Below are positions 8,778-30,304 of a stretch of DNA of 64,000 nt, piece by piece. The notes under the pieces are model-generated. The model was not told the origin of the DNA and did no database searches. It was given only the letters and a program-made list of their open reading frames with translations. How positions within the stretch are numbered: position 1 is the stretch's first letter; each line of letters opens with the position of its first letter. Location: assembly GCF_014635665.1 (NCBI RefSeq), contig NZ_BMDG01000004.1, positions 310,001 to 374,000 of the forward strand, read 5' to 3'. Origin of the DNA: Isoptericola cucumis. Its GTDB lineage: Bacteria; Actinomycetota; Actinomycetes; Actinomycetales; Cellulomonadaceae. Position numbers and translations under genes: made by a program.

Positions 8778-8778
8778 C

Positions 8779-12472: not shown

Positions 12473-12561
12473 GTCAGCTGCCTTCCACGAGGTCGTGCGA
12501 GAGGGAGTCGGCGGGCGCGGCGCTCGCTGCGCCCGCCGACACTGTGACCGTCCGCGGCCCG

Positions 12562-15930: not shown

Positions 15931-16494
15931 TCACGCATGGCCGGCGAGGTGTCGGCGGACCGTGGATACCGACACTCCGAGCGCCCGCGCGACGGCGGCC
16001 ACAGACTGTCCGCCGGCGACGGATGCTCGCGCCGTGGCGAGTCGTTCCGGCGACATCACGGTCGGGCGCCCGCCGACCCGTCCGCGCGAGCGCGCGGCCG
16101 CCAGGCCGTCGAGGGTGCGTTCCCGGATGAGGTCGGCCTCCATCTGGGCGAGCGCGGCGAGCATGTGCACCATGAACCGGCCGGCCGACGTGCTGGTGTC
16201 GATCTGCTCGGACAGCGACCGCAGGGCGACTCCGCGGCGCTCCAGCTCGTCGACGACGCGCACGAGGTGGGACACGCTTCGCCCGAGGCGGTCGAGCTTC
16301 GTCACGACGACGGAGTCGTCCTCGTCGAGCTCGGCCATGAGCGCTGCAAGGACCGGTCGGTCGTCGTGGCGGCCGGACGCGGTTTCGACCCGCAGATGCC
16401 GCGCGTCGACGCCGGCCGCGAGGAGCGCGTCGCGCTGTCCGTCGAGGTTCTGCGTCGACGTCGAGACCCGCGCGTAGCCGAAGGTGATCGCCAT
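15931..16494 (-). CDS. serine recombinase/resolvase
   Basis: 187 residues. The N-terminal resolvase domain has the catalytic serine in YARVST (Ser11), the arginine-bearing segment KLDRLGRSVSHL and the dimer helix MVHMLAALAQMEADLIRERT. A C-terminal Hin-like helix-turn-helix (about residues 150-185) would bind the recombination site. The size fits Tn3-family resolvases and invertases, not large serine integrases. It is the only DDE-free recombinase of the island and presumably acts on the dyads just upstream (16510-16624). No tnpA transposase is next to it. The start at 16494 is fixed by the family N-terminus. Confidence 0.93.
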   Translation of the reverse strand: MAITFGYARVSTSTQNLDGQRDALLAAGVDARHLRVETASGRHDDRPVLAALMAELDEDDSVVVTKLDRLGRSVSHLVRVVDELERRGVALRSLSEQIDTSTSAGRFMVHMLAALAQMEADLIRERTLDGLAAARSRGRVGGRPTVMSPERLATARASVAGGQSVAAVARALGVSVSTVRRHLAGHA

Positions 16495-16509
16495 GCCACG
16501 ACCGTAGCG

Positions 16510-16547
16510 AAAACCCCCGCCGGAGGTTCTGAACCGGCGGGGGTTTT
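16510..16547. repeat. 14-bp inverted repeat upstream of the resolvase
   Basis: Arms 16510-16523 and 16534-16547 are perfectly complementary (A4C5-rich and G5T4-rich) around a 10-base loop. It could be a terminator on either strand because both sides end in T4, or part of the resolvase res site, since it lies 16 bases upstream of the gene. Confidence 0.55.
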
Positions 16548-16603
16548 GAACGGGGTTTTTGAGCGGCGTGTCGTCGGCGCGTCGAGCGCGCGGTCCGGCC
16601 GCG

Positions 16604-16624
16604 TCAGAAACGGTCAGTTTTGAC
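16604..16624 (+). repeat. partial copy of the island dyad repeat (res-like)
   Basis: Matches 26115-26135 at 19 of 21 positions and 29616-29636 more loosely. It lies in the 230-base region between the resolvase and the divergent membrane protein gene, where a res site is expected. Confidence 0.55.
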
Positions 16625-16724
16625 TGGGTGGGCGCGCTTGTTGGAGTTCGCCAACGCTGGGACCAGCGGAGCTGATCGGTGAGACTCTGGAGCCGGGGCG
16701 GCAGCGGAGCCTTCGGAGGCAATC

Positions 16725-17252
16725 GTGGTCGACATTCCCGGTCTTCCTGTGCCGGACGCGGGGCCGGTGTTCGCGTTCGCCCTCCTTGTGCACATCGCGG
16801 CCGGGGTCACGGCGGTTCTCGCGGGCCTGGTCGCGATGCTGACTCGCAAGGGTGGCGCCTGGCACATGGGTGCAGGACGCGTCTTCCTCGTCGGAATCGT
16901 CGCGTTGTTTGCCACGATGGCCGTCATGACGGTGATCCGTTGGCCCGCGACTGCGCATCTGGCGGCGCTTGGTGCGAGCGCGCTATCGGCCGCAGCGCTC
17001 GGGTGGCGCAACCGGCGCCGTGGTGGGAGCGACGGCGCGCATATCGCGTGGATGAGCCTGGCGTACGTCGCGATGCTGACGGCGTTCTACGTCGACAACG
17101 GGCCACATCTGCCGGTGTGGGAACGGTTGCCGGACTGGTCGTTCTGGTTCCTGCCCGCGGCCGTTGGCGCTCCGCTGACGATCCGAGCGATCCGGCGTCA
17201 CCAGGGGGGTAGTCCTGCTTCTCCGGCTGTGAGGGGCCGTTCCGAAACGTGA
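16725..17252 (+). CDS. integral membrane protein, DUF2306-like
   Basis: 175 residues with about five hydrophobic segments (roughly 15-37, 50-70, 75-92, 105-122, 138-155) and a basic C-terminal tail. The N-terminal HIAAGVTAVLAGLVAMLTRKGG and the following HMGAGRVFLVGI resemble predicted membrane proteins of the DUF2306 type, whose role is unknown. GGAGG at 16715-16719 sets the GTG start at 16725. It sits between the resolvase and the arsenic genes, on the opposite strand from the resolvase, and may be cargo. No metal-binding motif is evident. Confidence 0.7.
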   Translation: MVDIPGLPVPDAGPVFAFALLVHIAAGVTAVLAGLVAMLTRKGGAWHMGAGRVFLVGIVALFATMAVMTVIRWPATAHLAALGASALSAAALGWRNRRRGGSDGAHIAWMSLAYVAMLTAFYVDNGPHLPVWERLPDWSFWFLPAAVGAPLTIRAIRRHQGGSPASPAVRGRSET

Positions 17253-17282
17253 GCAGCGTTGGGGTGACGGTCGGTTGGGGCG

Positions 17283-17597
17283 TCAGTGCGCGGCGTGCTC
17301 TTCGAGCGCTGCCGTCAGCTCATGGTCGGCAGGCACGCCGCGCAACCCTCCCGCGGGCGAGGGGTAGACGCGGCAGGCAACCCCTGGGTGCGCTTGGGGC
17401 GCAGGAAAGAGGTCCCGGCCGTCGATGTAGAACGACGGCGACCCGACGAAGCCGCGCGCCTGGGCCTGGTCCGCGTCGCCGATCATCACAGTGGCGATCG
17501 GCGCGTTGATCCCGGCGTGATCCAGGGCGCGTTGTAGTGCGGCGCGGGCGGGTGCCTCGTTGGGGCAGGAATCGACGACCAGGAGCTCAACCTTCAC
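17283..17597 (-). CDS. small thioredoxin-fold protein
   Basis: 104 residues starting with GTG. MKVELLVVDSCPNEAPAR is a thioredoxin-type first strand with a single cysteine (SCPNE) instead of CxxC, followed by VGSPSFYIDGRDLF, where the cis-proline and a beta strand of the fold belong. Proteins of this pattern are often found beside mercury and arsenic genes and are thought to be thiol carriers; that role is inference. It faces the flavin monooxygenase gene across 143 bases and could be controlled from the same region. Confidence 0.7.
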   Translation of the reverse strand: MKVELLVVDSCPNEAPARAALQRALDHAGINAPIATVMIGDADQAQARGFVGSPSFYIDGRDLFPAPQAHPGVACRVYPSPAGGLRGVPADHELTAALEEHAAH

Positions 17598-17721
17598 CGC
17601 TCAATTGTCCCTCGGGCTCCAGTCGCGCGCTGGCGGGCTGCGATGCCACCGCTTGATCGAGGAGGCTGCAGGCAGCGACGATCCGGGCCGTCGCTACCCG
17701 TCCCATTGATATATTTACAGA

Positions 17722-17729
17722 TGTCGATA
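17722..17729 (+). promoter_or_regulatory. ArsR-type half-site upstream of the flavin monooxygenase
   Basis: TGTCGATA, identical to the inner part of the perfect trxB operator arm (20120-20127), lies in an AT-rich stretch 11 bases before the GTG start. No matching left arm was found at the same distance, so it is at best a weak or half operator. Confidence 0.35.
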
Positions 17730-17740
17730 GGTTGTCCCGT

Positions 17741-18823
17741 GTGACTACGTCTTCAACGCATCGGGTGATCATCGTCGGCGCCGGGCAGTCTGGTCTTGCG
17801 GCAGCGCGGGCTGTGCAAGTTCGCGGCTTGGAACCGCTCGTGCTGGAGGCTGAGGACAGGCCGGTGGGCTCGTGGCCGTCGTACTACGACAGTCTGCGGC
17901 TGTTTTCCCGGGCGAAGTACAGCGGCTTCCCCGGGTTCGTGTTCGGCGGCGATCCTGACCGCTACCCGCACCGGGACGAGGTGGTCGACCATCTGGCGCG
18001 GTACGCCGACCACCTCGGCGTGGAGATCCGCACCCGCACCCGTGTGGACACGGTCTCGGCGACCGGGGCCGGGTACGCGATCCGCACGGAGACGGGTGAC
18101 GAGCTCGAGGCCGATGGGGTGATCGCAGCGACAGGCTCGTTCCCTAATCCCGTGTACCCCAAGCTGCCCGGCCTGGAGTCCTTCACCGGCGACGTGGTCC
18201 ACGCCGCCGACTATCGCAACCCGGAGCCGTTCGCCGGGCGACGGGTGGTCGTGGTGGGTGGCGGGAACTCCGGGGTGCAGATCGCCCACGAGCTGGCGGC
18301 GGTGAGTGATCTGACCCTCGCCACGCGTGCTCCGGTCGCGTTCCTCGGACAGCGGCCGTTGGGCCGAGACGTGCACTTCTGGTTCGGCGCGTTGGGCTTC
18401 GACCGGCTGCCGCCGGCTGTGCTGCGGCGCTTGGTGCGCGGGCCGTTGGTGCTGGACACCGGCTCCTACCGGGCCGCGCTCGAGAGCGGCTCGGTGCGCC
18501 GTCGACCGATGTTCGCTGCTCTGGACGGTGACGAGGTGGTGTGGAGCGACGGGACGCGGGAGCACCTGGATGCGCTTGTCCTGGCGACCGGGTATCGGCC
18601 CGCCGTGGGGTATCTGCGCGACCTGGGCGCCGTGGACGAGCAGGGCGCACCGCACCATCGTGGCGGGATCTCCCTCACGCATCGCGGCCTGGGATACGTC
18701 GGCCTCGAGCTGCAGCGCTCGTTCGCGTCCAACACGCTGCGCGGGGTGCACCGCGACGCCGCCCATGTCGCGGCCGCGGTGACGGCGCAGGCCCGCAGCG
18801 CGCCCACCTTGGTCGGCTCGTGA
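17741..18823 (+). CDS. flavin-dependent monooxygenase of the ars operon (ArsO-like)
   Basis: 360 residues with two Rossmann dinucleotide motifs: GAGQSG at residue 13 for FAD and GGGNSG near residue 170 for NADPH, plus the late ATGYRP motif. This is the layout of flavin-containing monooxygenases. Genes of this type called arsO recur in arsenic operons; their reaction is not settled, with oxidation of organic or trivalent arsenicals proposed. The stop overlaps the GTG of the MFS carrier gene (GTGA). The GTG at 17741 is preferred over TTG 17732 by spacing from TAGG; the difference is three residues. Confidence 0.8.
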   Translation: MTTSSTHRVIIVGAGQSGLAAARAVQVRGLEPLVLEAEDRPVGSWPSYYDSLRLFSRAKYSGFPGFVFGGDPDRYPHRDEVVDHLARYADHLGVEIRTRTRVDTVSATGAGYAIRTETGDELEADGVIAATGSFPNPVYPKLPGLESFTGDVVHAADYRNPEPFAGRRVVVVGGGNSGVQIAHELAAVSDLTLATRAPVAFLGQRPLGRDVHFWFGALGFDRLPPAVLRRLVRGPLVLDTGSYRAALESGSVRRRPMFAALDGDEVVWSDGTREHLDALVLATGYRPAVGYLRDLGAVDEQGAPHHRGGISLTHRGLGYVGLELQRSFASNTLRGVHRDAAHVAAAVTAQARSAPTLVGS

Positions 18824-20085
18824 GCGCGACCGCGACTGTGGCCGGACAACCACCTCGCGGGCCGCTGGTGACGCTGTGCCTGACGCAGGTCGTGGGTTGG
18901 GGCGTGCTCTACTACACCTTCCCGGTCGCCCTGCCGGCCATCACCGCCGACACGGGATGGACTCAGGCCAGCACCATGGCTGCGTTCTCCGCGGCACTGG
19001 TCGCCGCGGCGGCTTTCGGGCTCGTGGTGGGCCGGCGCATCGACCGGGTCGGGCCCCGTGCGGTGATGACTGCCGGATCGGTGCTCGGGACCCTCGCCAT
19101 GCTCGGCGTCGCGCTCGCCCCCACCTTGGCGTGGTTCGTTGCCGCTTGGGTGCTGGCCGGGGTGGCGCAGTCGATGGTGCTGTACGCGCCGGCGTTCACC
19201 GCGATCACCCATTGGTACGGCGCCGGGCGAGCTCGGGCGCTGCTCGTGCTGACCTTGGTCGGTGGGCTGGCCAGCACGATCTTCGCGCCGGTGACCACGG
19301 CCCTGATCGAGCACGTTGGCTGGCGCCAGACCTACCTCGTCATGGCCGCGGCCTTGGCGATCGTCACCGTCCCGGCCCATGCGATCGGGCTGCGCGCCCC
19401 CTGGCCACCGCGCGAGCCTGCCGAGCCCCGGTCCCTAGGCGGGTGGCGACCCATCGCCCGGTCCCGGGCGTTCGTCTGCCTGACCGTCGCCACCTCGCTG
19501 GGAGCGTTCGCGATGTATGCCGCCACGATCCATCTGGTTCCGATGCTGACCTGGCGTGGCATGAGCGCCGCCGCCGCGGCCTGGGCGCTCGGGCTGTCCG
19601 GCGCGGGGCAGCTGCTCGGGCGTCTGGCCTATGGTCCTATCGCGACCCGCACCACGCCTGCACCGCGCGCGAGCATCATCCTGGCCGCCGTCGGCCTCGC
19701 GATCGCGGCCGTGGGACTGCTGGGAGGGCCGCCCGTCGCGTTGATCGCGGTCGCGGTCGTCCTCGGCCTCGGTCGCGGCGCCTACACGCTCCTGCAGTCC
19801 ACCGCCATCAGCGACCGGTGGGGCACCGCCGGGTTCGGTGCCCTGTTCGGCATCCTCAACGCCCCCACGACCCTCGCGATGGCACTCGCTCCATGGGCTG
19901 CCGCAGCCCTCGAGGAAGCCACCGCCTCCTACCCCGTGACCTTCGTCTTCCTGGCCGCCGTCGCCGGCCTTGCCGCCCTTGCCGCCCTCGCTACCGGTGT
20001 GAGACCGCTGGCCAGGCCATCGGCCGACGGGGCCCGGCTGAGCGAGGCGCGACGATCGGTCGCGCCCGCCGGTTGGCGCGAGTAG
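18820..20085 (+). CDS. MFS transporter in the ars operon
   Basis: 421 residues with twelve predicted membrane helices in two halves and the MFS loop motif GRRIDRVGPRAVM between helices 2 and 3. The pattern resembles monocarboxylate-porter-like MFS proteins. Translation is coupled to the flavin monooxygenase by a four-base overlap, so the carrier probably exports or imports that enzyme's product or substrate, perhaps an oxidised or organic arsenical; this is inference. It is not ArsJ by context, because no GAPDH-like gene is present. It ends 33 bases before trxB. Confidence 0.85.
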   Translation: MSATATVAGQPPRGPLVTLCLTQVVGWGVLYYTFPVALPAITADTGWTQASTMAAFSAALVAAAAFGLVVGRRIDRVGPRAVMTAGSVLGTLAMLGVALAPTLAWFVAAWVLAGVAQSMVLYAPAFTAITHWYGAGRARALLVLTLVGGLASTIFAPVTTALIEHVGWRQTYLVMAAALAIVTVPAHAIGLRAPWPPREPAEPRSLGGWRPIARSRAFVCLTVATSLGAFAMYAATIHLVPMLTWRGMSAAAAAWALGLSGAGQLLGRLAYGPIATRTTPAPRASIILAAVGLAIAAVGLLGGPPVALIAVAVVLGLGRGAYTLLQSTAISDRWGTAGFGALFGILNAPTTLAMALAPWAAAALEEATASYPVTFVFLAAVAGLAALAALATGVRPLARPSADGARLSEARRSVAPAGWRE

Positions 20086-20090
20086 ACAAA

Positions 20091-20130
20091 CTGTATCGAC
20101 AAGTCTCAATATAGAGGTATGTCGATACAG
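20091..20130. promoter_or_regulatory. perfect 11-bp ArsR-type operator overlapping the trxB start
   Basis: Arms CTGTATCGACA (20091-20101) and TGTCGATACAG (20120-20130) are exact reverse complements separated by 18 bases, which hold an inner CTC/GAG dyad around AATATA. The right arm contains the TG of the trxB ATG (20119-20121), so a bound repressor would cover both the promoter and the start codon. The TATCGACA/TGTCGATA core fits operators of metal-sensing ArsR proteins. Confidence 0.7.
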
Positions 20131-21129
20131 CAGGTGGAAGAGTTGGTCATCGTCGGGTCGGGTCCCGCCGGGTACACGGCGGCCGTCTATGCCGCGCGGG
20201 CGGGTCTGGCGCCGGTCGTCATCGCCGGCTCCGTGACCGCGGGCGGCGCGCTGATGAACACCACCGAGGTGGAGAACTTTCCCGGCTTCCCGACCGGCAT
20301 CCAGGGCCCCGACCTCATGGAAGCCATGCGTGAGCAGGCCGAGAGCTTCGGCGCCACGGTGCTGTGGGACGACGCCGAACAGGTCGAGCTCACCGGCGAC
20401 CTCAAGACCATCGTCACCGGCGGCGGCGAGACCTTCAAGGCCCGCGCCGTCATCCTCGCCACCGGCTCCGCCTACCGCGAGCTCGGCCTGCCCGAGGAGA
20501 AGCAGCTCTCCGGACGCGGCGTCTCCTGGTGCGCCACCTGCGACGGCTTCTTCTTCCGCGACCAGCACATCGCCGTGGTCGGCGGCGGCGACTCCGCGAT
20601 GGAGGAGGCCACCTTCCTCACCCGCTTCGCGTCCAAGGTCACCGTCGTACACCGCCGAGACTCCCTGCGCGCCTCCAAGATCATGGCCGACCGCGCCCAG
20701 GCGAACCCGAAGATCGAGTTCGCCTGGAACAGCGAGGTCGCCGCGATCGGCGGCGAGAACAAGGTCACCGGCGTCACCCTGCGCGACACCGTCACGGGCG
20801 AGACGCGCGAGCTCGACGCGACCGGCCTGTTCGTCGCCATCGGGCACGACCCGCGTACCGACCTCGTCAAGGGCCAGATCGACCTCGACGACGAGGGCTA
20901 CATCCTCGTCGAGGGCCGCTCCACCCGCACCAACCTGCCCGGCGTCTTCGCCTGCGGCGACGCCGTCGACCACACCTACCGCCAGGCCATCACCGCCGCC
21001 GGCTCCGGCTGCGCCGCCGCCATCGACGCCCAGTCGTACCTCAGCGCATTTCTCGACATCGAAGGCCACGACGATCTCGAGGGCGCGCCCACGGACGCGC
21101 TCCCCGCGGCGCTGGAGGAGGTCCGATGA
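20119..21129 (+). CDS. trxB: thioredoxin reductase of the ars operon
   Basis: 336 residues: FAD motif [15 protein letters not shown] from residue 13, redox-active CATC at Cys138-Cys141, NADPH motif GGGDSA at 155-160 with HRRD downstream, and the FAD motif [10 protein letters not shown] near the end. It passes electrons from NADPH to thioredoxin, which would re-reduce arsenate reductase. Its coupling to acr3 by an ATGA overlap marks it as a dedicated copy for arsenic resistance rather than the housekeeping enzyme. A perfect operator overlaps its start. GTG 20134 is an alternative start. Confidence 0.93.
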
Positions 21130-22259
21130 GCAAGGCGCCGACCACACAGGCCGCCGCGCGGCGACTGTCCACCCTCGACCGGTGGCTGCCGGCCTGGATC
21201 GGGCTGGCGATGATCGCGGGCCTGCTGCTGGGCCGGTTCGTCCCGGCGCTGTCGGACGTGCTGGCCTCGATGGAGGTCGGCGGCATCTCGGTGCCGATCG
21301 CGCTCGGCCTGCTGGTGATGATGTACCCGGTGCTGGCCAAGGTCCGCTACGACAAGGTCGCCACCGTCACCGGGGACAAGAAGCTGCTGGCCAGCTCGCT
21401 GATGCTGAACTGGATCGTCGGGCCGGCGCTGATGTTCGCCCTGGCCTGGACGTTCCTGCCCGACCTGCCGGAGTACCGCACCGGGCTGATCATCGTCGGG
21501 CTCGCCCGCTGCATCGCGATGGTGGTCATCTGGAACGACCTCGCGTGCGGGGACCGGGAGGCCGCCGCCGTGCTGGTGGCGATCAACTCCGTGTTCCAGG
21601 TCGTCGCGTTCTCCCTGCTCGGGTACTTCTACCTGACCGTGCTGCCCGGCTGGCTCGGCCTGGACACCCAGGGCCTGGACATCTCGATCGGGCAGATCGC
21701 GCTCAACGTCCTGGTCTTCCTCGGCATCCCGCTCGTCGCGGGCTTCGCCTCCCGCCGGCTCGGCGAACGCGCCAAGGGGCGCGACTGGTACGAGGAGAAG
21801 TTCGTCCCACGCATCGGCCCGTGGGCCCTGTACGGGCTGCTGTTCACGATCGCGCTGCTGTTCGCCCTGCAGGGTGAGCAGGTGACGTCCCACCCGCTCG
21901 ACGTCGCCCGCATCGCGCTGCCGCTGCTGGTCTACTTCGCCGTCATGTGGGGCCTCGGGATGGTCCTCGGGCGAGCGCTGCGGCTCGGGTACGCACGCTC
22001 GGCCACGCTGGCGTTCACCGCGGCGGGCAACAACTTCGAGCTCGCCATCGCGGTCGCGATAGGGACCTTCGGCGCCGCCTCCGGGCAGGCGCTGGCCGGG
22101 GTCGTCGGGCCGCTCATCGAGGTCCCCGTCCTGGTGGGCCTGGTCTACGTGTCCCTGTGGGCCGCCCGCCGTTGGTTCGGCGTCGACCCCTGCGCCACCC
22201 CCGACACCACCGGCGCCGCCGACGGTGCCAAGCAAGAGCTGGACGAGGTGAGGTCATGA
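21126..22259 (+). CDS. acr3: Acr3-type arsenite exporter
   Basis: 377 residues with ten hydrophobic helices of the BASS/Acr3 fold. Landmarks include [18 protein letters not shown], the conserved [14 protein letters not shown] helix with the cysteine essential for arsenite transport, and [19 protein letters not shown]. It expels As(III) across the cytoplasmic membrane by proton antiport. ATGA overlaps at both ends couple it to trxB before it and to the arsR-arsC fusion after it, so exporter, reductant and regulator are made together. Confidence 0.95.
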
Positions 22260-23323
22260 CCACCACCGATGGGACCGACACGAAGCGGGCGGACCTGCCG
22301 CTGACCGTGCGCGACCCGGACTGCGGGCCCAGCATCGAGACGCACGCGATCGGCACCGAGGCCGCCGGCGTCGTCGCGAGCACGCTCAAGGCCCTGGCCG
22401 AGCCGCTGCGGCTGCGGATGCTGTCCTTCCTGGCCACCGCTCCGGGCGGGGAGGCATGCGTGTGCGACCTGGCCGAGCTGACCGACGTGTCCCAGCCGAC
22501 GGTGTCCCACCACCTCAAGGTGCTGCGCGACGTCGGCGTGCTCGCCTCCGAGCGTCGCGGCACCTGGGTCTGGTACCGCATCACCCCCGGCTACAAGGCC
22601 GCGATCAGCACCCTGCTGGAGTCCTTCGCCCCGGCCGCCTTGGACGCCCTCGGCCCGCACCCACACCTGACCGGGCTCGAGGACGCCGACGGCGCCCTGG
22701 ACCGGCTCGCCCGCGAGCTCACGATGGCGCACTCCGACCTGGGTGCCGACGTCATCCTGCGCACCGTGCGCGAGTCCTACACCGCGCTGGCGCGCTCGGC
22801 CAAGGTCTCCGCCCACCTGCTGACGCTCACCGAGCGGTTCGCCCTCCAGCGCCTCGCCGACCTGACCCGCGACGCCTCTCGCGGCGACTCCACCGGCGGC
22901 GCCGAGCATGCCGGTCCGCCCCAGGTGCTGTTCGTGTGCGTCGCCAACGCCGGCCGCTCCCAGCTCGCCGCCGCGCTCGTGCGGCACTACGCCGGCGACC
23001 GGGTCGTCGTCCGCTCCGCCGGCTCCACCCCGGCCGCCGACGTCCACCCGGCCGTGCGGCCCGAGCTCGCCGCCCTCGGCGCCGACGAGCCGTTCCCCAA
23101 GCCGCTGACCGACGACGCGGTCCGCGCCGCCGACGTCGTGATCACCATGGGCTGCGGCGACGTCTGCCCGATCCTGCCCGGCAAGCGGTACGAGGACTGG
23201 CTCGTGGGCGACCCCGCCCTGGCCTCGCCCGCGGGCGTCGCAGCCATCCGCGACGAGCTCGACACCCACGTGCGAGCCCTGCTCGTCGACCTGCTGCCCG
23301 ACCTCGGCCTGCCCACCCCCTGA
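22256..23323 (+). CDS. ArsR-ArsC fusion: arsenic-sensing repressor joined to arsenate reductase
   Basis: 355 residues in three parts. Residues 40-130 are an ArsR winged helix with the metal-site pair Cys68-Val-Cys70 and recognition helix SQPTVSHHLKVL. Residues 140-210 are a helical segment like the N-terminal domain found in some tyrosine-phosphatase-type ArsC proteins. Residues 222-355 are a low-molecular-weight phosphatase-fold arsenate reductase with Cys228-x5-Arg234 (CVANAGRS) and MGCGDVCP. One chain could thus sense arsenite and reduce arsenate. It overlaps acr3 by four bases and is followed 15 bases later by a separate arsC. Confidence 0.9.
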   Translation: MTTTDGTDTKRADLPLTVRDPDCGPSIETHAIGTEAAGVVASTLKALAEPLRLRMLSFLATAPGGEACVCDLAELTDVSQPTVSHHLKVLRDVGVLASERRGTWVWYRITPGYKAAISTLLESFAPAALDALGPHPHLTGLEDADGALDRLARELTMAHSDLGADVILRTVRESYTALARSAKVSAHLLTLTERFALQRLADLTRDASRGDSTGGAEHAGPPQVLFVCVANAGRSQLAAALVRHYAGDRVVVRSAGSTPAADVHPAVRPELAALGADEPFPKPLTDDAVRAADVVITMGCGDVCPILPGKRYEDWLVGDPALASPAGVAAIRDELDTHVRALLVDLLPDLGLPTP

Positions 23324-23338
23324 CCTGACGGAGCCACC

Positions 23339-23767
23339 ATGACCGACACCACCACCACGAAGCCGTCCGCCCTGTTCGTCTGCGTGCACAACGCCGGCCG
23401 CTCCCAGATGGCCGCGGGCTTCCTGCGCGCCCTGTCCGGCGGCGCCGTCGAGGTGCGGTCGGCCGGCTCGATGCCCGCCGACCGCATCAACCCCGTCGCC
23501 GTCGAGGCCATGGCCGAGGCCGGCATCGACATCACCGCCGAGCAGCCCAAGGTGCTCACCACCGACGCCGTGCAGGCCTCCGACGTCGTCATCACCATGG
23601 GCTGCGGCGACGCCTGCCCGATCTTCCCCGGCAAGCGGTACGAGGACTGGGAGCTCGACGACCCCGCCGGGCAGGGCCTCGACGCCGTCCGACCCATCCG
23701 CGACGACATCGAGCGTCGCGTCCGCGGCCTGCTGGCCTCGCTGGACATCACGCCCGTCGCGCACTGA
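23339..23767 (+). CDS. arsC: arsenate reductase (LMW phosphatase fold)
   Basis: 142 residues with the P-loop Cys15-x5-Arg21 (CVHNAGRS) and a second cysteine pair Cys89/Cys93 in TMGCGDACP. It reduces As(V) to As(III) for export by Acr3. The spacing of the later cysteines (four) is shorter than in the thioredoxin-coupled enzyme of staphylococcal pI258 and looks like actinobacterial enzymes that use mycothiol/mycoredoxin; which reductant applies is inference, and the operon also encodes a thioredoxin reductase. ACGGAG before the ATG is a good ribosome-binding site. Confidence 0.93.
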   Translation: MTDTTTTKPSALFVCVHNAGRSQMAAGFLRALSGGAVEVRSAGSMPADRINPVAVEAMAEAGIDITAEQPKVLTTDAVQASDVVITMGCGDACPIFPGKRYEDWELDDPAGQGLDAVRPIRDDIERRVRGLLASLDITPVAH

Positions 23768-23800
23768 CGCGGCATCTGGCCGGCCCGCCCGCCCTGGAGC

Positions 23801-23839
23801 GACGACGGGGCCACACCCTCAGGGTGCGGCCCCGTCGTC
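23801..23839. terminator. strong hairpin terminator after arsC
   Basis: Outer arms 23801-23812 and 23828-23839 (12 bp) and inner arms 23814-23819 and 23821-23826 (6 bp) form one long stem with a single mismatch and a one-base loop, 33 bases after the arsC stop. It ends the arsenic operon. Confidence 0.8.
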
Positions 23840-23866
23840 ATGTCCTGCTCGAGGTGAGGATCGACG

Positions 23867-24097
23867 TCAAGCCGTCGCGCAGCACGGCGCCGGCTCAGCG
23901 CTGCGCGGCGCGAGACGGGCAGCGGCACCCGAAAGCCGATCGGCCCCCCATCCTCGCAGCCGGATCCACCCAGCCACAGCCCGCGTCGCTCGCACCTCCA
24001 TGTCGCCGCGTTCACGTGCGACACGCAGATACTCACGTTGCCGTTCCTGCTCGCGTTCCTCCTGCTCGAAGACGAACTTCGCCAGTTCAGGGTCCAT
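23867..24097 (-). CDS. small charged hypothetical protein
   Basis: A 76-residue frame in the 418-base gap between arsC and the second flavoprotein gene. AGGAGG lies about ten bases before the ATG at 24097, a better ribosome-binding site than chance would give. Residues 1-33 form a highly charged predicted helix (FVFEQEEREQERQREYL), while the C-terminal half is Arg/Ala-rich with a CC pair near the end. It lies downstream of the flavoprotein gene on the same strand. I recognise no family; it may be a small accessory protein or a remnant. Confidence 0.4.
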   Translation of the reverse strand: MDPELAKFVFEQEEREQERQREYLRVARERGDMEVRATRAVAGWIRLRGWGADRLSGAAARLAPRSAEPAPCCATA

Positions 24098-24185
24098 GGG
24101 CTCGATCTCCTCCTCGATCCACGCGGCGCGTCAGCGGCGCACCGCACACCTCAGCGACATGGCCATCGGGGCATGCCCGACGGAT

Positions 24186-25601
24186 TCAGTCCTCGCCGTC
24201 GCCCGAACGCCCGTGCACGATGCCGGACGCGAAGCCAACCCCGGCCGGTACGCCTACGCCGAGCGTGACGAGCTGCGGCTCGGCCGGTGCGGTGCCGCAG
24301 CACGACCCGGCTGCGGACTCGCCGTCAGCCTCCAGGGCGAGGTCGCTAGAGCAGACGCCGGTGGCGGGCAGGTTCAGCTCGACGGCGTCGGCCGCGGCCC
24401 GGTCGCCGGCCAGCGCCGCGGCGACGGACCGGACCTGCTCGTACCCCGTCGCGAGTAGGAACGTCGGCGCGCGGCCGTAGGACTTCATGCCGACGAGGTA
24501 GAAGCCGTCGTCCGGGTGGGACAGCACCTGCTCGCCGTGCGGGGGCACGGTGCCGCAGGAGTGCTGGTTCGGGTCGATGAGCGGCGCCAGAGCGCTCGGG
24601 GCCTCGACGACGGGGTCGAGGTCGAGGCGCACCTCGCGCAGCATGCTCAGGTCGGGCCGGAAGCCGGTGGCGTTGACGATCGCGTGCACGTCCAGGGCCA
24701 GCGGCTCGTCCTTCGCGGTGCCGAGCACCTGCACGGACTCGGCCCCCGGGACCAGCTGCTCGACCGAGACCCGGGTGAGCAGGCGCAGGCGGCCGGCGTC
24801 GACGGCCTCGCGCAGGCGGGTGCCGAGGAGCCCACGGGCGGGCAGCTCGTCGTCGGTGCCGCCGCCGAACAGGCGGCGCGCGGACCCTCCGCGGATCGCC
24901 CACGTGATCGTGGTGCCCGGCGACGTCTCGGACAGCTCGACCAGGCTCAGCAGGGTGTTCGCCGCGGAATGCCCCATGCCCACGACCAGGGTGTGCCGGC
25001 CGGCGAAGCGGTCACGCTGCGCGCCGAGGACGTCGGGCAGCGGCCCGGTGACGAACGGCGCAGCCTCGGACTCGCCCGCGGCCGGCAGACCGGAGACCCC
25101 GAGCGGGTTGGAGGTGTCGTACGTCCCGGAGGCGTCGACCACCGCGCGGGCCAGGACGTCGGCGACGCGACCGGCAGCGTCGACCGTGCGGACCCGGTAG
25201 CCGCGTCGCTCACGCCCGAGCGAGCGGGTCTTGTCTGCACCGTCGCGGGCGACGGCGAGCACGCGGGTGCCGGTGCGCAGCCTGGACGCGATCTGCGGGG
25301 TCGCGGCCAGCGGAGCGAGGTAGCCCTCGACGAGCTCTCGCCCGGTCGGCAGGGCGTCGGCGTCGGGCGCCGTCCAGCCGGTCGGCTCGAGCAGGCGACG
25401 GGCCGCGGCGTCGACGTCGTACCGCCACGGCGAGAAGAGCCGCACGTGACCCCAAGACGCGACGGCCGCGCCGGCGCTCTCGCCCGCTTCCAGCACCAGC
25501 GGTTCCAGGCCGCGCTCCAGCAGGTGTGCCGCCGCGGCCAGCCCTACCGGGCCGCCGCCGATCACGACCACGGGCAGGTCGTTCCGAGCAACCTCGCTCA
25601 T
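24186..25601 (-). CDS. FAD/NAD(P)-binding oxidoreductase with cysteine-rich tail
   Basis: 471 residues. GGGPVGLAAAAHLLERG is the FAD motif at residue 14, GMGHSAAN near 215 the NAD(P) motif and NATGFRPDL the late FMO-type motif, so it resembles flavin monooxygenases or flavoprotein reductases. The last 55 residues are unusual, with Cys417 and a vicinal pair Cys434-Cys435 (GSCCGTAP) able to bind soft metals or As(III). It is divergent from an arsR gene across 83 bases, so it is very probably arsenic-regulated. GGAGTGGTG precedes the ATG at 25601. The reaction is unknown. Confidence 0.8.
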   Translation of the reverse strand: MSEVARNDLPVVVIGGGPVGLAAAAHLLERGLEPLVLEAGESAGAAVASWGHVRLFSPWRYDVDAAARRLLEPTGWTAPDADALPTGRELVEGYLAPLAATPQIASRLRTGTRVLAVARDGADKTRSLGRERRGYRVRTVDAAGRVADVLARAVVDASGTYDTSNPLGVSGLPAAGESEAAPFVTGPLPDVLGAQRDRFAGRHTLVVGMGHSAANTLLSLVELSETSPGTTITWAIRGGSARRLFGGGTDDELPARGLLGTRLREAVDAGRLRLLTRVSVEQLVPGAESVQVLGTAKDEPLALDVHAIVNATGFRPDLSMLREVRLDLDPVVEAPSALAPLIDPNQHSCGTVPPHGEQVLSHPDDGFYLVGMKSYGRAPTFLLATGYEQVRSVAAALAGDRAAADAVELNLPATGVCSSDLALEADGESAAGSCCGTAPAEPQLVTLGVGVPAGVGFASGIVHGRSGDGED

Positions 25602-25624
25602 CACCACTCCTCACATCGAGAACC

Positions 25625-25666
25625 ATCGATACGGCGATCCTGAACCACCCATCGACGAATGTCAAT
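25625..25666. promoter_or_regulatory. candidate ArsR operators in the arsR/flavoprotein divergent region
   Basis: ATCGAC (25651-25656) and GTCAAT (25661-25666) form a near-dyad around GAAT, and ATCGATAC at 25625-25632 repeats the outer half of the trxB operator arm. The region is 83 bases and must hold both divergent promoters. Confidence 0.5.
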
Positions 25667-25684
25667 CTATGCGAGAATAGGGTC

Positions 25685-26062
25685 ATGACCACGACCGCGC
25701 CCGCTCTCTTGCCCCTCGCCGCATCTGCGGACGGCGGCTGCTGTGCTCCCGCGCTCACCCAGGCAGTCGAGCCCGAGGTCGCCCAGGAACTCGCCCGGTC
25801 GTTCAAGGCACTCGCCGACCCCGCCCGCGTCCAGCTGCTAGCCATCGTCGCCACCCAGCCCGGCGCCGAGGCCTGCGTCTGCGACCTCACCGAACCCGTC
25901 GGCCTCTCGCAGCCGACCGTCAGCCACCACCTCAAGATCCTCACCGAGGCCGGCCTCCTCAAGCGCGAGCAGCGCGGCCGCTGGGCCTACTTCTCCCTCG
26001 CATCCGGCGCCCTCCCCGCACTCGTCGGCTCCCTGTCGTCGGTGACGCAGGTCGACGCCTAG
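25685..26062 (+). CDS. arsR: ArsR family arsenic-responsive repressor
   Basis: 125 residues. The winged helix runs from ELARSFKALADPARVQLLAI to the wing GRWAYFSL; recognition helix SQPTVSHHLKIL. Cys64-Val-Cys66 in EACVCDL is the helix-alpha3 site that binds As(III) or Sb(III) in ArsR proteins. A second vicinal pair, Cys19-Cys20 (GGCCAP), lies in a flexible N-terminal extension and may add a third thiol. ATG 25685 is fixed by the family start. It faces the cysteine-tailed flavoprotein and is closely followed by a hairpin. Confidence 0.92.
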   Translation: MTTTAPALLPLAASADGGCCAPALTQAVEPEVAQELARSFKALADPARVQLLAIVATQPGAEACVCDLTEPVGLSQPTVSHHLKILTEAGLLKREQRGRWAYFSLASGALPALVGSLSSVTQVDA

Positions 26063-26075
26063 CCTCCGGGCGGCC

Positions 26076-26094
26076 CGAGGTTTTTGAAACCTCG
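26076..26094. terminator. hairpin after arsR
   Basis: Arms 26076-26083 and 26087-26094 are perfect 8-bp complements with a three-base loop, 13 bases after the arsR stop, immediately before the island dyad repeat. Confidence 0.55.
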
Positions 26095-26096
26095 AA

Positions 26097-26132
26097 ACCC
26101 GATTCTGACGCGCCTCAGAATCGGTCAGTTCT
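26097..26132 (+). repeat. island dyad repeat, copy after the arsenic block
   Basis: About 36 bases matching 29598-29633 with two differences. It contains the inverted arms GATTCTGA (26101-26108) and TCAGAATC (26115-26122), followed by CGGTCAG. The right half also occurs at 16604-16624 near the resolvase. It may be a resolvase-binding site or the scar of cassette joining. Confidence 0.7.
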
Positions 26133-26183
26133 GACGCGGGCGAAACCCTTGGCGAGTTACGACAAGCGGGTCGCGTTGTGGCG

Positions 26184-26795
26184 TCACAGAAGGCTCCCGA
26201 TGTGCGCCAGGGTCCCGGACTCGATCAGGATGAACACGCCGAGGCCAATGAAGACCGCAGGCACGAGCCAGTGCTCGACTTTCTCCAGCGCCTCGGTGAC
26301 CTTCTCGTTGGTGCCGATCGTGCGTGCGAGCAGGCACCACAGGGCGAGCAGGACGAGGAAGACGACGATCGTGACTAGGGCGTCGGTGGTCGACATTGTG
26401 CGGAACACCGGGGTGTAGATCGCGATGTTGTCGCCGCCGTTGGCGATCGTGATCCCGGCAACGCCGAGGAGACCGACGGCCTTGAGCGCGGACTCCGCCT
26501 CGTCGTCATCGTCGTTCCCGCGCAGGGTGCGCACCAGCGCCAGGACGCCGATAGCCAGCGGGATTAGGCCCAGCAGGCCAACCCACTCGTCCGGGACGAT
26601 CGTCAGGCCGAGAGCGGCGAGGAAGCTGACCGCGATTAGCGTGACGAGACCGAGGTACTGCCCGGCGACGATCTGCCACCCGCGTAGCCGTGAGGTCCCG
26701 CGCGCGGCGACGGCGAACAGGACGGTCAGTACCACGATGTCGTCGATGTTGGTCGCGACGAACAGCCCGGCCGCGGCCGCGATCGTGCTCAGCAT
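26184..26795 (-). CDS. cadD: CadD family cadmium resistance permease
   Basis: 203 residues, five or six membrane helices. The family signatures NIDDIVVL (residues 16-23) and NGGDNIAIYTPVF are present, with acidic residues inside membrane helices that are thought to handle the metal. CadD proteins confer Cd(II) resistance, with some variants linked to amine export. The start at 26795 overlaps the stop of the cmtR-like gene by seven bases, so sensor and permease are translated together and the sensor presumably represses both. Confidence 0.87.
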   Translation of the reverse strand: MLSTIAAAAGLFVATNIDDIVVLTVLFAVAARGTSRLRGWQIVAGQYLGLVTLIAVSFLAALGLTIVPDEWVGLLGLIPLAIGVLALVRTLRGNDDDDEAESALKAVGLLGVAGITIANGGDNIAIYTPVFRTMSTTDALVTIVVFLVLLALWCLLARTIGTNEKVTEALEKVEHWLVPAVFIGLGVFILIESGTLAHIGSLL

Positions 26796-27160
26796 GCGGA
26801 GTCCTGCCCGTCCATGCCGTAGGTCGGGCACAGCGCGACGGCACTGCCCGTCGCAGCGAGCAGCGTCTCTGCCGCAGCGAGCATGTCCAGCAGCTCGGGG
26901 CGCGCCAGGGAGTAGTAGACCCGACGGCCCTCCATGCGCCCGTCGACCAGCCCGCAGTCCTTCAAGCAACCCACGTGCGAGGACACCGTCGACTGCGCCA
27001 GGCCAAGGTCTCGCGTCAGCTCTGCTACCCGAGCCTCGCCGACCGCCAGTCGTCGCACGATCGCCAGCCGCGCCGGGTCACCCAGTGACCGGAACAGCGC
27101 AACCGCCGGCTCCGCGTCCGCCCTGCTCGCAACCTGCGCCTCGCGCTCTATGATCGACAT
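26789..27160 (-). CDS. cmtR: CmtR-like ArsR/SmtB sensor of Cd(II)/Pb(II)
   Basis: 123 residues with an ArsR winged helix and the CmtR metal site: Cys65-x3-Cys69 in the recognition helix (VGCLKDCGLV), plus a C-terminal Cys111 where Mycobacterium tuberculosis CmtR has its third ligand, and an extra final Cys123. CmtR releases DNA when Cd(II) or Pb(II) binds. It is translationally coupled to cadD. A second CmtR-type gene starts 225 bases away on the other strand, so this intergenic region serves two metal-controlled promoters. Confidence 0.88.
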   Translation of the reverse strand: MSIIEREAQVASRADAEPAVALFRSLGDPARLAIVRRLAVGEARVAELTRDLGLAQSTVSSHVGCLKDCGLVDGRMEGRRVYYSLARPELLDMLAAAETLLAATGSAVALCPTYGMDGQDSAC

Positions 27161-27353
27161 GAAACGATGATAGCCGGGTTATATCGATGGGTCGTCCAGT
27201 GAGAGCGCCCAGAGCTCCGGATGCCCTGCCCCGAATCCCCGCGCGCCAGTCGCGCAGAATGGGCCGTTCGTGGTGGATGCAGAACCTTCATTTTTGCGGG
27301 CTACAAGCGGTCGGGTTCTGACCGAGGTGATCCCACCGGGGATACAGGCTGTT

Positions 27354-27374
27354 GTGTATACACGATTCCGTGTA
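27354..27374. promoter_or_regulatory. operator dyads upstream of the second CmtR-like gene
   Basis: GTGTATACAC (27354-27363) is a perfect palindrome and overlaps a second dyad, TACACG (27359-27364) / CGTGTA (27369-27374), ending 11 bases before the ATG. Such nested sites fit an ArsR/CmtR-type autorepressor. Confidence 0.6.
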
Positions 27375-27385
27375 CCGTCGCGCTC

Positions 27386-27718
27386 ATGGAGACGGTCACG
27401 CTCACCCACACCGCCGCGCTCGCTCGGCTCGGGCATGCGCTGTCGGACGAGACCCGCACTCGGATCATGCTCACGCTGCGGGAGGCGCCTGCCTACCCGG
27501 CGGACCTTGCCGACGCCCTCGGGGTCTCGCGGCAAGTGATGTCGAACCAGCTCGCATGCCTGCGCGGTTGCGGCCTCGTCGAGGCGATCCCGGACGGGCG
27601 GCGAACCTGGTACCGGCTGGCCGACTCGCACCTTGCCCCGGCTCTCGACGACCTGCTTCGCCTGGTCGTGACCGTCGATCCGACCTGCTGCTCGCCCGAA
27701 GGGTGCACCTGCTCATGA
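27386..27718 (+). CDS. second CmtR-like ArsR/SmtB metal sensor
   Basis: 110 residues: winged helix with Cys58-x3-Cys62 (ACLRGCGLV) in the DNA-recognition helix as in CmtR, and a C-terminal cysteine cluster Cys101, Cys102, Cys107, Cys109 that could complete a thiolate site. Cd(II), Pb(II) or Zn(II) are plausible ligands. Its stop overlaps the start of the CDF exporter gene (ATGA), so it most likely represses that exporter. The nested palindromes upstream are candidate operators. It is clearly different in sequence from the neighbouring CmtR copy. Confidence 0.87.
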   Translation: METVTLTHTAALARLGHALSDETRTRIMLTLREAPAYPADLADALGVSRQVMSNQLACLRGCGLVEAIPDGRRTWYRLADSHLAPALDDLLRLVVTVDPTCCSPEGCTCS

Positions 27719-28425
27719 CCTCGATCTCGCTCGGCCCTCGCCCGCTGCCGGCCGCCCGTCGCGCGCTCCTCGAACGCCGGGTGCGGTGGATCGTCGCCGC
27801 GACGATCACCTATAACGTGATCGAGGCCGTCGTCGCGATCACCGCCGGCCGCATCGCGTCGTCCGCGGCCCTGGTCGGGTTCGGGCTCGACTCCGTCGTC
27901 GAGGTACTGTCCGCGGCCGCGGTCGCCTGGCAGTTCGCCGCCCCCGACCCGCATCGGCGCGAGCGGGTCGCGATGCGGCTGATCGCGGTGTCGTTCTTCG
28001 GCCTGGCCTTGTTCGTCACCGTCGATGCCGTTCGCACGCTGTTCGGCGCCTCGGAGCCGGACCACTCCACTGTCGGCATCGTCCTGGCCGCCGTCAGTCT
28101 CGCGATCATGCCGTTCCTGTCCTGGTTCGAGCGCCGCACCGGCCGCGAGCTGGGCTCAGCCTCCGCGGTGGCGGACTCCAAGCAGACCCTGCTGTGCACC
28201 TATCTGTCAGCGGTCCTGCTCGTCGGTCTCGTGCTCAACTCCACGCTCGGCTGGTCCTGGGCCGACCCGCTCGCTGCGCTCGTGATCGCCGGGTTCGCGG
28301 TCAAGGAAGGCGTCGAGGCGTGGCGCGGCGACGCTTGCTGCACGCCGGTCGGTGCGCTTCTCGCCCACGACGACGAGGACGGCGACGGCTGCACCGATGG
28401 GTGCTGCGCGCCTAACGCGAAGTAG
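27715..28425 (+). CDS. cation diffusion facilitator-like metal exporter with cysteine tail
   Basis: 236 residues with five or six membrane helices. GFGLDSVVEVLSAA in helix 2 and AVADSKQTLLCTYLSA in helix 5 are where CDF transporters place the aspartates that bind the transported metal. The usual cytoplasmic C-terminal domain is replaced by a short tail with CCTP (208-211), Cys226 and CCAP (230-233), probably a metal-docking site. It is coupled to the preceding CmtR-like sensor, so Cd, Zn or Co export under that sensor is expected. The metal is not decided by sequence. Confidence 0.85.
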   Translation: MTSISLGPRPLPAARRALLERRVRWIVAATITYNVIEAVVAITAGRIASSAALVGFGLDSVVEVLSAAAVAWQFAAPDPHRRERVAMRLIAVSFFGLALFVTVDAVRTLFGASEPDHSTVGIVLAAVSLAIMPFLSWFERRTGRELGSASAVADSKQTLLCTYLSAVLLVGLVLNSTLGWSWADPLAALVIAGFAVKEGVEAWRGDACCTPVGALLAHDDEDGDGCTDGCCAPNAK

Positions 28426-28469
28426 CCGCGTCGGGCGCGGCCGTCGGAGAGTTTCCCGGACCCGAGGGC

Positions 28470-28501
28470 TTGACCTTCAAGCCAAGTCGAAGGTTTACGG
28501 T
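28470..28501 (+). promoter_or_regulatory. MerR-type promoter with 20-bp spacer and operator dyad
   Basis: TTGACC (28470-28475) and TACGGT (28496-28501) are separated by 20 bases, longer than the usual 17, which is the hallmark of promoters that MerR proteins activate by twisting DNA. The dyad ACCTTC (28473-28478) / GAAGGT (28489-28494) sits inside the spacer as expected. The ATG follows at 28508. Confidence 0.75.
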
Positions 28502-28507
28502 CGCGTC

Positions 28508-29233
28508 ATGAGGATCTCCGAGCTGTCGACGCGCACCGGTGTGCCGGCGTCGACGTTGCGCTTCTACGAGTCCGAGGGCCTGCTGCCAGCCGACCGCGCG
28601 GAGAACGGGTACCGCGTCTACGGCGAGGCCGCCGTCGACCGGCTCGCGTTCATCGCCCAGGCCAAGCACCTCGACCTCCCGCTGCCCGCGGTGCGCGAGC
28701 TCGTCACGGCATGGGAGTCCGAGCCGTGTCACAGCGTGCGCGCGAAGTACCGGCCGATGCTCGTCGAGCACGCGGCCCAGGTCGACGAGCGCATCGTCTC
28801 GCTCGAAGGGCTCCGCTCGACCCTGGCGACGGCGGTCGAGCGGCTGGACGCGCTACCCGACCGCGACGAGCCCTGCGACGCCGGCTGCACCTTCCTCGAC
28901 CGCGCACGGCCCGCCCTGCCGATCGCCACCGCACCGCGCACACCAGTGGCCTGCACCCTCGAAGGGGAGGACTACGGCACCCGCGTCTCCGACTGGCGCG
29001 ACCTGCTCGGCGGGGCGCCGCGGGCCGACGTCGCCGGCGGGGTCCGCGTGACGCTTCCGACGAGCGAGCTCGGGCGCGCCGCCACCCTCGCGCAGGCAGA
29101 ACAGAGCTGCTGCGCGTTCTACACGTTCCGGATCGACCTGCACGGCCTGACTTTCGATCTGACGATCACCGCGCCTCCCGAGGCGCGGCCCATGCTCGAC
29201 GACCTGCTCCCCGCCGAGGAGGCCGCCCGATGA
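28508..29233 (+). CDS. MerR family regulator with C-terminal cysteine domain
   Basis: 241 residues, longer than typical MerR (about 140). Residues 1-70 are the MerR DNA-binding domain ([20 protein letters not shown]). A dimer helix follows, with Cys74 before it and Cys123/Cys127 after it, reminiscent of the three-cysteine site of MerR-type heavy-metal sensors. Residues 145-235 form an extra domain with Cys149 and a vicinal pair Cys201-Cys202 in [15 protein letters not shown], a motif I have seen attached to metal-related regulators but whose function is unknown to me. It is coupled to ynfA by ATGA. Confidence 0.85.
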
Positions 29234-29565
29234 ACCTCGCTCGCTCGATCCTGCTGTTCGGCGCCGCCGCGATCTTCGAGATTGGCGGCGCTTGGCTCGT
29301 GTGGCAGGGGGTACGCGAGCACAAGGGTTGGGCCTGGATCGGCGCCGGCGCCATCGCGCTCGGGCTATACGGCTTCTTCGCCACCCTCCAGCCCGACGCC
29401 CACTTCGGCCGCATCCTCGCCGCCTACGGCGGCATCTTCGTCGCCGGCTCCCTCGCCTGGGGCATGGTCGTCGACGGCTTCAAACCCGATCGGTGGGACG
29501 TCACCGGCGCCCTCATCTGCCTCGCCGGCGTCGCCGTCATCATGTACGCCCCGCGACCCACCTGA
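29230..29565 (+). CDS. ynfA: YnfA family small membrane protein
   Basis: 111 residues with four membrane helices, the size and pattern of the YnfA/UPF0060 family ([18 protein letters not shown] at the first helix, [18 protein letters not shown] in the middle, [20 protein letters not shown] at the end). The family is related to small multidrug exporters. Here it overlaps the MerR gene by four bases and lies behind a MerR-type promoter inside a metal island, suggesting a metal or metal-organic substrate; this is inference. Confidence 0.9.
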
Positions 29566-29597
29566 GCCGCAGCACTGGACTTTTCGAGACGTCCAGA

Positions 29598-29633
29598 ACC
29601 CGATTCTGACGTGCCTCAGAATCGGTCATTTCT
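29598..29633 (+). repeat. island dyad repeat, copy after the cadmium/MerR block
   Basis: Matches 26097-26132 except at two positions; arms GATTCTGA (29602-29609) and TCAGAATC (29616-29623). It begins 33 bases after the ynfA stop, so it could also act as a terminator. Confidence 0.7.
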
Positions 29634-29680
29634 AGCGCATCTGGCCCGGCAGCCGGCCCAAGGCAACTCGAACGCGTTAG

Positions 29681-30291: not shown

Positions 30292-30304
30292 GCCCCTCGG
30301 GGGC
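30292..30304. terminator. short hairpin between convergent genes
   Basis: GCCCC (30292-30296) and GGGGC (30300-30304) with a three-base loop, 55 bases after the hypothetical gene and overlapping the stop of the recombinase-like gene on the other strand. Confidence 0.35.

Follow-up and report, generated by a model that had tools for sequence, protein, structure and literature searches.

Why should a short inverted repeat stand beside a serine resolvase gene and again at the end of each of two blocks of metal-resistance genes? The question is raised by a 64,000-nucleotide stretch of the Isoptericola cucumis genome (contig NZ_BMDG01000004.1, positions 310,001 to 374,000; here denoted the window), for which a sequence-only reading had proposed that a small resolvase joins resistance modules at a shared site. 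Cassette accretion at such a site fits most of our findings: arrays of sites in relatives, cassette boundaries at the sites, a presence/absence pair on plasmid pTL2A and co-occurrence of sites and resolvase. We propose that the locus is an integron-like gene-cassette capture platform using the small serine resolvase, a reading to which we give a probability of about 0.82. The comparison of genomes shows separate site classes, a fixed orientation, defined cassette boundaries, one exact presence/absence pair and exchange between genera.

Two site classes beside a resolvase gene

The repeat copies stand where they had been placed: by the resolvase, between the arsenic and cadmium blocks, and right after the last metal gene (ynfA, ending at 29565). 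Read directly, the two full copies (26097-26132 and 29598-29633) have 2 mismatches in 36 positions, and the 21 bases at 16604-16624 have 2 against 26115-26135. The window contains four copies of GATTCTGA, arranged in two inverted pairs as the sequence-only reading had it; 0.33 occurrences are expected, and none of 100 shuffles reached four. The repeat is thus real, but 36 nucleotides is too short a unit, the conserved cassette-end unit measuring ~56 bp (26079-26134 and 29580-29635). Likewise, the GATTCTGA/TCAGAATC arm pairs are present, whereas the dyad common to all copies is TCAGAA...TTCTGA (26115-26134). What had been called a partial copy at the resolvase belongs to a separate site class; it is not a broken copy and appears to be a res crossover site. 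Common to both classes is the 20-bp dyad TCAGAANCGGTCNGTTCTGA, which reads TCAGAAACGGTCAGTTTTGA at 16604-16623. The locus is laid out as follows (window coordinates).

15931-16494, minus strand: serine resolvase of Tn3/invertase type, 187 amino acids, proposed cassette recombinase
16495-16603, no strand: proposed res accessory boxes II/III, separating the gene from its crossover site and containing repeats like GGTTTTTGA and CGGCGTGTCG
16604-16623, plus strand: attI-like site, crossover dyad TCAGAAACGG^TCAGTTTTGA, 109 bases beyond the resolvase start codon
16614-26124, plus strand: cassette 1, 9.5 kb, arsenic block, probably fused from smaller cassettes
26079-26134, plus strand: attC-like site 1, 56 bp, left dyads followed by core TCAGAATCGG^TCAGTTCTGA
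26125-29625, plus strand: cassette 2, 3.5 kb, cadmium/cation block
29580-29635, plus strand: attC-like site 2, the last site of the array, right arm decayed (TCATTTCTAG)

When up to 3 mismatches are allowed, the core TCAGAATCGGTCAGTTCTGA is found three times in the window, where 0.00 matches are expected, and four times in the whole 4.46-Mb genome; the reversed control gave none. The fourth copy lies on contig C8 (genomes, contigs and loci carry our working numbers, G, C and L) and is followed by a partial cassette-type site, 15970-16012, covering model positions 1-43. Scored with model R1, sites 1 and 2 of the window have E-values of 1.8e-14 and 3.4e-15, good matches by construction, both sites being rows of this 25-row model themselves.

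Transcription terminators or regulatory palindromes ending the metal operons would also lie where both full window copies lie, just downstream of operons, and the copies could form hairpins. Four core copies in 4.46 Mb, however, are not a terminator scattered genome-wide, and in relatives the copies flank unrelated genes in both orientations; such a role would also leave uniform array orientation and exact insertion within the site unexplained. We rejected this explanation on the four genomic copies and on the cassette found inside the site in pTL2A, which tells against terminators as the sole explanation, and give it next to no chance.

The resolvase has an N-terminal catalytic domain (PF00239, E 2.3e-42) with the motifs YARVS and KLDRLGR and a C-terminal helix-turn-helix (HTH_7), as Tn3-type serine resolvases do. 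Its relatives in PDB are DNA invertase (4m6f), gamma-delta (1gdt) and Tn3 (5cy1) recombinases. With regard to a three-box res layout, we observed a core ~110 bp upstream of the gene and, between the two, repeats that are partly conserved, as is the upstream block across 18 aligned resolvase loci. In five array loci the core common to them stands 109-111 bases beyond the resolvase start codon. By analogy with the Tn3 layout given in an excerpt of PMC12217951, boxes II and III would occupy 16495-16603.

Site arrays and cassettes in related genomes

With up to 2 mismatches, the core was found in 23 of 221 family genomes, the reversed control giving one match in one genome; the genomes surveyed include Cellulosimicrobium protaetiae and Paraoerskovia sediminicola. 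We counted 62 sites in 20 arrays of at least two sites each, in the genera Isoptericola, Krasilnikoviella, Xylanimonas and Cellulosimicrobium, and orientation is uniform in all 20. Tandem cassettes in a single orientation, with one 3' site per cassette in pTL2A, are a feature in common with integrons. Spacings within arrays (n=42) run from 385 to 9,511 bp, with a median of 1,552. Not counted were single sites, sites with no neighbour within ~10 kb, twin hits of the dyad on the opposite strand, and two places where weaker matches fall on either strand: L042 (G149; 4555 plus, 3181 minus) and L052 (G137; 7304 plus, 7611 better minus). A few of the coordinates used may be off by 1-2 bases, and among the 20 arrays those on C1 and C3 of G142 nearly duplicate each other. 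Three site pairs found later (G169:C25, G170 and G125:C5), outside the 20-array count, are each uniform. In L042 (G149:C238), core-like matches occur on both strands at 2600-4574, the cassette-type left part being missing. In Isoptericola luteus, near-identical arrays stand on two contigs of one genome (L039 and L040), which may come from a duplicated region, a plasmid-borne copy or the assembly itself.

Open reading frames (ORFs) between sites were called with a simple custom script, not a published gene finder. Nine of the 30 scanned have no Pfam match (E<=0.01), the 30 including three transposon Tni genes and one ORF past a last site. Among the others are sigma factors, an aminoglycoside-phosphotransferase-like protein, GNAT acetyltransferases, HIT, formyltransferase, DoxX and MerR proteins and a cation efflux protein. 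The sequence-only reading spoke of resistance modules, but the system is not confined to resistance genes; in relatives unrelated genes lie between the sites.

Aligned over 56 bp, 25 cassette-end sites have a mean identity of 86% and read GGTTTCGAAACnTCCAGAACCCGATTCTGGCGCGCC, then the core. The longest stretch that does not vary is TCGGT, in the middle of the dyad: each of its bases is the same in 25 of 25 sites, and the C that follows in 24. Resolvase-side sites are set apart by their left flank, which reads TTGAGCGGCGTGTCG... in the window's group, and by core position 7, where most have A instead of T. A further cassette site, type B, with core YGACAAACGGTCGGTTCTGC, occurs mainly in Cellulosimicrobium (at E<=1e-6, in 9 genomes of group g6, three of g15 and one of g1). 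Two arrays (G119 and G145) contain both type A and type B sites, as expected if cassettes are acquired from another genus. By eye, many cores are followed by a second dyad near TTGTCGAGANTCGACAA, 10-14 bp to their right and at the 5' end of the cassette (for example after L035 9669 and L036 11443); it is possibly another accessory site.

A blastn search of plasmids with the window repeat gave no match, and a pattern scan of viral contigs gave 0 matches. The same scan of genome contigs found 11 stretches, nine of them in five species (Isoptericola luteus, Isoptericola sp. QY 916, Isoptericola sp. 4D.3, Krasilnikoviella flava and Xylanimonas oleitrophica) and two in single contigs of metagenome-assembled genomes, which we took for chance. 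Across the order, 396 genomes were searched with the site model and 13 matched at E<=0.01. Of the 11 that are outside the window's own genus, G396 alone is strong (1.7e-10) and ten are marginal. The G396 match (L154, G396:C16, core near 10626) places a site of cassette type in a different family of this order, in a genome whose resolvase, among the matches listed, is only 50% identical.

Homology between arrays tends to end at the sites. Sixteen of 26 blastn blocks end in the site zone in both loci. One whole cassette is common to K. flava and Isoptericola sp. QY 916 at 90% identity, with both ends at sites:

L035 9668-11404 = L036 11462-9727: cassette common to K. flava and Isoptericola sp. 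QY 916

Cassettes with one end in common were found in L035/L037, L037/L043 (another genus), L041/window and L038/window. The resolvase-side flanks of six loci are alike and mostly stop at the core, with different first cassettes beyond. For the window, this homology ends at the 16604-16623 site against L034 and L037, runs ~35 bp past the core against L041, and continues through a common first cassette against L047.

Point of exchange and choice of recombinase

The C. cellulans plasmid pTL2A (NZ_CP101476) and genome G120 form the decisive presence/absence pair, a 2,202-bp cassette encoding a histidine kinase and a response regulator being present in the plasmid where G120 has an empty site. 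The left flank, with resolvase and res, is 99.8% identical over 2,008 bp up to the attI core, and the right flank 98.2% identical over 2,163 bp from the core on. There is one site per cassette, and the half-sites are hybrid, attI-left with cassette-right and then cassette-left with the right half of the empty site; they are those of conservative insertion. The cassette is also found in G169, a genome of another genus (97.7% over 2,130 bp), with an unrelated left flank, and there identity starts at the dyad's central GT.

Two further junctions are clean. L035 and L036 have a mismatch at core position 7 and are identical from 8 to the core end; L080 and L081, 98% identical on their left side, have equal cores up to 12 and mismatches at 13 and 14. 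These junctions place the exchange between dyad positions 7 and 13, within CGGTC; together with G169 they point to the central GT, positions 10-11, on few junctions, part of whose pattern single mutations could mimic. An integron attC site is used as a folded single strand, with exchange at G^TT. In L080/L081 exchange lies left of position 13 and does not fall at the G^TT equivalent, 14/15, an observation of moderate weight given the few junctions. A folded single-strand attC was considered and rejected: a hairpin can be drawn, but compensatory changes occur in 0 of 14 pairs. Rival internal dyads gave 5 compensatory cells, a number reached by 202 of 500 shuffles. With none in 14 pairs and 5 cells at shuffle level, neither the hairpin nor the internal dyads are supported by covariation. 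Serine resolvases make a central two-base cut according to an excerpt of PMC12217951, which matches a GT exchange point.

The same junctions bear on whether the arrays arose by RecA-dependent homologous recombination between short repeats, with no site-specific recombination. Repeats of up to 56 bp could support rare deletions between direct copies. Cassettes ending in type B, however, lie beside type A sites with little in common beyond the core, the clean junctions fall within the core, and identity in G169 begins only at the central GT. We regard this origin as very unlikely.

In the cassette-capture platform that we propose, the crossover dyad at 16604-16623, in the res-like region upstream of the resolvase, would be the insertion point. 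Each mobile cassette would carry a single 3' site made of a ~36-bp left part with two further dyads and the 20-bp crossover dyad. The resolvase-side dyad would recombine with the dyad of a presumably circular cassette, strands being exchanged at the central GT, so that the cassette is inserted beside the resolvase and the product reads attI-left, cassette, attC-left and the old right half. Repeated capture would build an array whose sites all point the same way, away from the resolvase, and recombination between direct repeats would remove cassettes. This resolvase would be the enzyme that joins the cassettes, which would move as circular intermediates, and the attI boxes II/III and the cassette left dyads would set direction.

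A tree of 35 rows splits 20 clade resolvases, that of the window among them, from 15 others with support 100/99. The sequence-only reading had suggested looking for the repeat near related resolvases in other genomes, and sites do co-occur with this clade. In 220 family genomes, a clade resolvase (full-length or partial, at 60% identity or more) is present in at least 19, sites (E<=1e-6) in 22 and both in at least 11; a clade resolvase accompanies at least 11 of the 22 site genomes and at least 8 of the 198 others (Fisher p 3e-8 among the matches listed, a value inflated because related genomes are not independent). By our reading, the core is clear and in its expected position in 11 of 18 aligned clade loci and partial in two. 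A de novo repeat test found the core repeated in 5 of 14 clade loci, and in 15 outgroup loci (13 genomes) found 1-3 matches with 3-4 mismatches to other 20-mers, which we read as chance. A second, degraded resolvase copy lies in the window's own genome (L053, G000:C17, 5887-6336), 89% identical over residues 35-184.

Several findings weigh against the platform as proposed. Among the matches listed, 11 of the 22 site genomes have no clade resolvase, and K. flava, with four arrays, has no clade member (best E 6.5e-12). The full core is missing from the expected place in 7 of the 18 aligned clade loci (none at all in five), and no repeated core was found in 9 of the 14 loci of the de novo test. 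According to an excerpt of PMC12217951, a canonical Tn3 resolvase needs boxes II and III, and box I alone is reported not to recombine; the cassette sites lack attI-type boxes and carry other dyads. Uniform orientation would be broken by L042 and L052 if all their matches were real sites. Eight of the 26 homology blocks end at no site, five of these being short matches of 68-73%, and two end at a site in one locus only. The pTL2A/G120 pair is the sole clean one of its kind and could reflect excision instead of capture; in G169 the cassette lacks its 3' site, homology ending short of it. Three of four right-cassette pairs have only 33-56% ungapped identity over 45 bp after the core and are of no help in mapping exchange. 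Finally, the window cassettes hold sub-blocks with no internal sites.

The site genomes with no clade resolvase are the main argument for another host enzyme, the resolvase being a bystander with a look-alike res. Such an enzyme would be a tyrosine recombinase, whether an unrecognised IntI, XerC/D or one of the recombinases at 32091-33218 and 34645-35877; phage-integrase-family genes do lie right of the array in the window, and the loci with no repeated core speak for it too. Integron cassette clusters without an integrase are known, and the resolvase-less site genomes may be their counterpart. Against another enzyme stand the core placed at 109-111 bases in the five array loci in a Tn3-like layout, clean junctions at the dyad centre (positions 8-12) and not at the G^TT point, the lack of compensatory change for a folded attC, and the co-occurrence with the clade. 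On this evidence a different recombinase is unlikely.

Known systems and the setting of the locus

Integrons are the textbook gene-capture platform, with one recombinase family and an unusual single-strand chemistry. Their site types differ between taxa and some site clusters are left without an integrase, features that the taxon-differing site types and resolvase-less clusters seen here resemble in form. The locus is further like an integron in its single recombinase gene with an adjacent insertion site, its tandem one-site cassettes and its diverse cargo. In integrons, as an excerpt of PMC8618304 describes them, the tyrosine recombinase IntI acts on attI x attC, whereas here a PF00239 Resolvase stands beside the insertion site, exchange apparently takes place at the double-stranded dyad centre (GT) with a folded single-strand site unsupported, cassettes are often multi-gene with both orientations, and attI resembles a Tn3 res. 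Because the recombinase and, on present evidence, the exchange point differ, the platform is integron-like yet not an integron.

Co-integrate resolution by Tn3-family resolvases uses a three-box res, as set out in part of PMC12217951. The locus has in common with it the enzyme family, a crossover site ~110 bp upstream with repeats nearer the gene, and adjacent Tn402/Tn5053-like transposons; unlike it, the locus has arrays, other accessory sequences at cassette sites and, among the ORFs scanned, no transposase. The partners are not two identical full res sites but attI-like and attC-like ones, cassette sites differing from the attI-like site outside the 20-bp core, and because they are unlike, this is not a canonical resolution system. 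In pdif modules of Acinetobacter plasmids, according to an excerpt of PMC6449649, modules flanked by XerC/D and XerD/C sites are moved by the host tyrosine recombinases XerC/XerD. The likeness lies in adaptive-gene modules that include metal resistance, short recombination sites as bounds and genus-restricted spread; the difference, on that excerpt, is the dedicated recombinase gene with its own insertion site, of which pdif has none. The sites here, judged by orientation and not by dif sequence, are direct repeats of one dyad and are not in inverse order. The locus is not a pdif system. Resolvase-mediated shuffling of mosaic transposons was reportedly described by Kholodii in 2001. Here, too, resolvase/res recombination is a source of gene shuffling, as in mosaic transposons and in the TIME elements with res of PMC4133298 (excerpt), but the partners there are transposon res sites, in contrast to dedicated cassettes, an own site class and ordered arrays.

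No description of such a system was found in the open-licence literature searched, preprints and most subscription journals lying outside that scope. We rate it as categorically new; a stricter reader could call it a variant, since resolvases and cassette arrays are each known separately. It is probably a second, independently evolved integron class, with a dedicated serine resolvase, double-stranded circular cassettes, a res-like attI, and taxon-specific site types A and B marking a cassette pool common to genera of one actinobacterial family. A serine-recombinase counterpart would mean, if true, that cassette capture evolved more than once. It would explain the stacking of metal-resistance and other adaptive genes in soil actinobacteria, provide a signature for finding mobile cassettes and a compact recombinase for stepwise gene stacking, and make testable how a resolvase, normally excision-biased, can insert.

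Tn402/Tn5053-like gene sets adjoin clade resolvases and, in L039, an array site; one carries merA and merB.

L171 (NZ_CP072388) 2741-12802: Tn402/Tn5053-like gene set
L036 15334-18190: Tn402/Tn5053-like gene set
L039 4635-7423: Tn402/Tn5053-like gene set

In G143 and G172 a Tn402-like gene block ends ~90 bp short of the resolvase start. A second copy in G120 lies at the end of a 10-kb stretch that is 99.3% identical to a C. cellulans plasmid, whose annotated genes are a Mu-type transposase, TniB, TniQ, a recombinase, merA and merB. Such transposons prefer res sites (PMC12217951, in excerpt), and their place beside clade resolvases is what res hunting would produce. The neighbourhood, together with the Tn3 type of the resolvase, would also suit the remains of a Tn3-family transposon, repeated transposition having multiplied its res. 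No Tn3 transposase is among the ORFs scanned, however, and the cassette ends lack the attI boxes, have a conserved left part of their own and mark homology that ends at the core; we hold this origin to be extremely unlikely.

The capture platform lies in the chromosome as an island, flanks that are ~19 kb apart in the window being 2.4-4.6 kb apart in 5 of 18 genus genomes (G134, G138, G140, G142 and G147, with both flanks matched); the left chromosomal flank had no strong match in the other 12 relatives. Cassette 1 encodes a DUF2306-like protein (below cut-off), a 104-amino-acid ORF on the minus strand with no Pfam match, a TrxB-like protein, ACR3, an ArsR-ArsC fusion, an ArsC-type LMWPc protein and ArsR, as well as ArsO-like flavoproteins and an ArsK-like MFS protein, both below NCBIfam cut-offs. 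The fusion (22256-23323) joins an ArsR-type regulator to an LMWPc domain of arsenate-reductase type in one 355-amino-acid protein. Cassette 2 encodes CadD and an ArsR-type regulator (minus strand), a CmtR-like protein (below cut-off), a CDF efflux protein, MerR and YnfA. Parts of both recur elsewhere: the DUF2306-like gene with the 104-amino-acid ORF beside attI in L047 and L081, trxB-acr3-arsR-arsC between two sites in X. oleitrophica (L038 7557-14381), and CadD-ArsR alone between two sites in L041. The window cassettes seem to have been fused from smaller ones with loss of internal sites.

Right of the array, at 30304-33218 on the minus strand, lie a phage-integrase-family gene (32091-33218), a 486-amino-acid ORF with no Pfam match and a gene with a Cro-type helix-turn-helix; the group is perhaps another mobile element.

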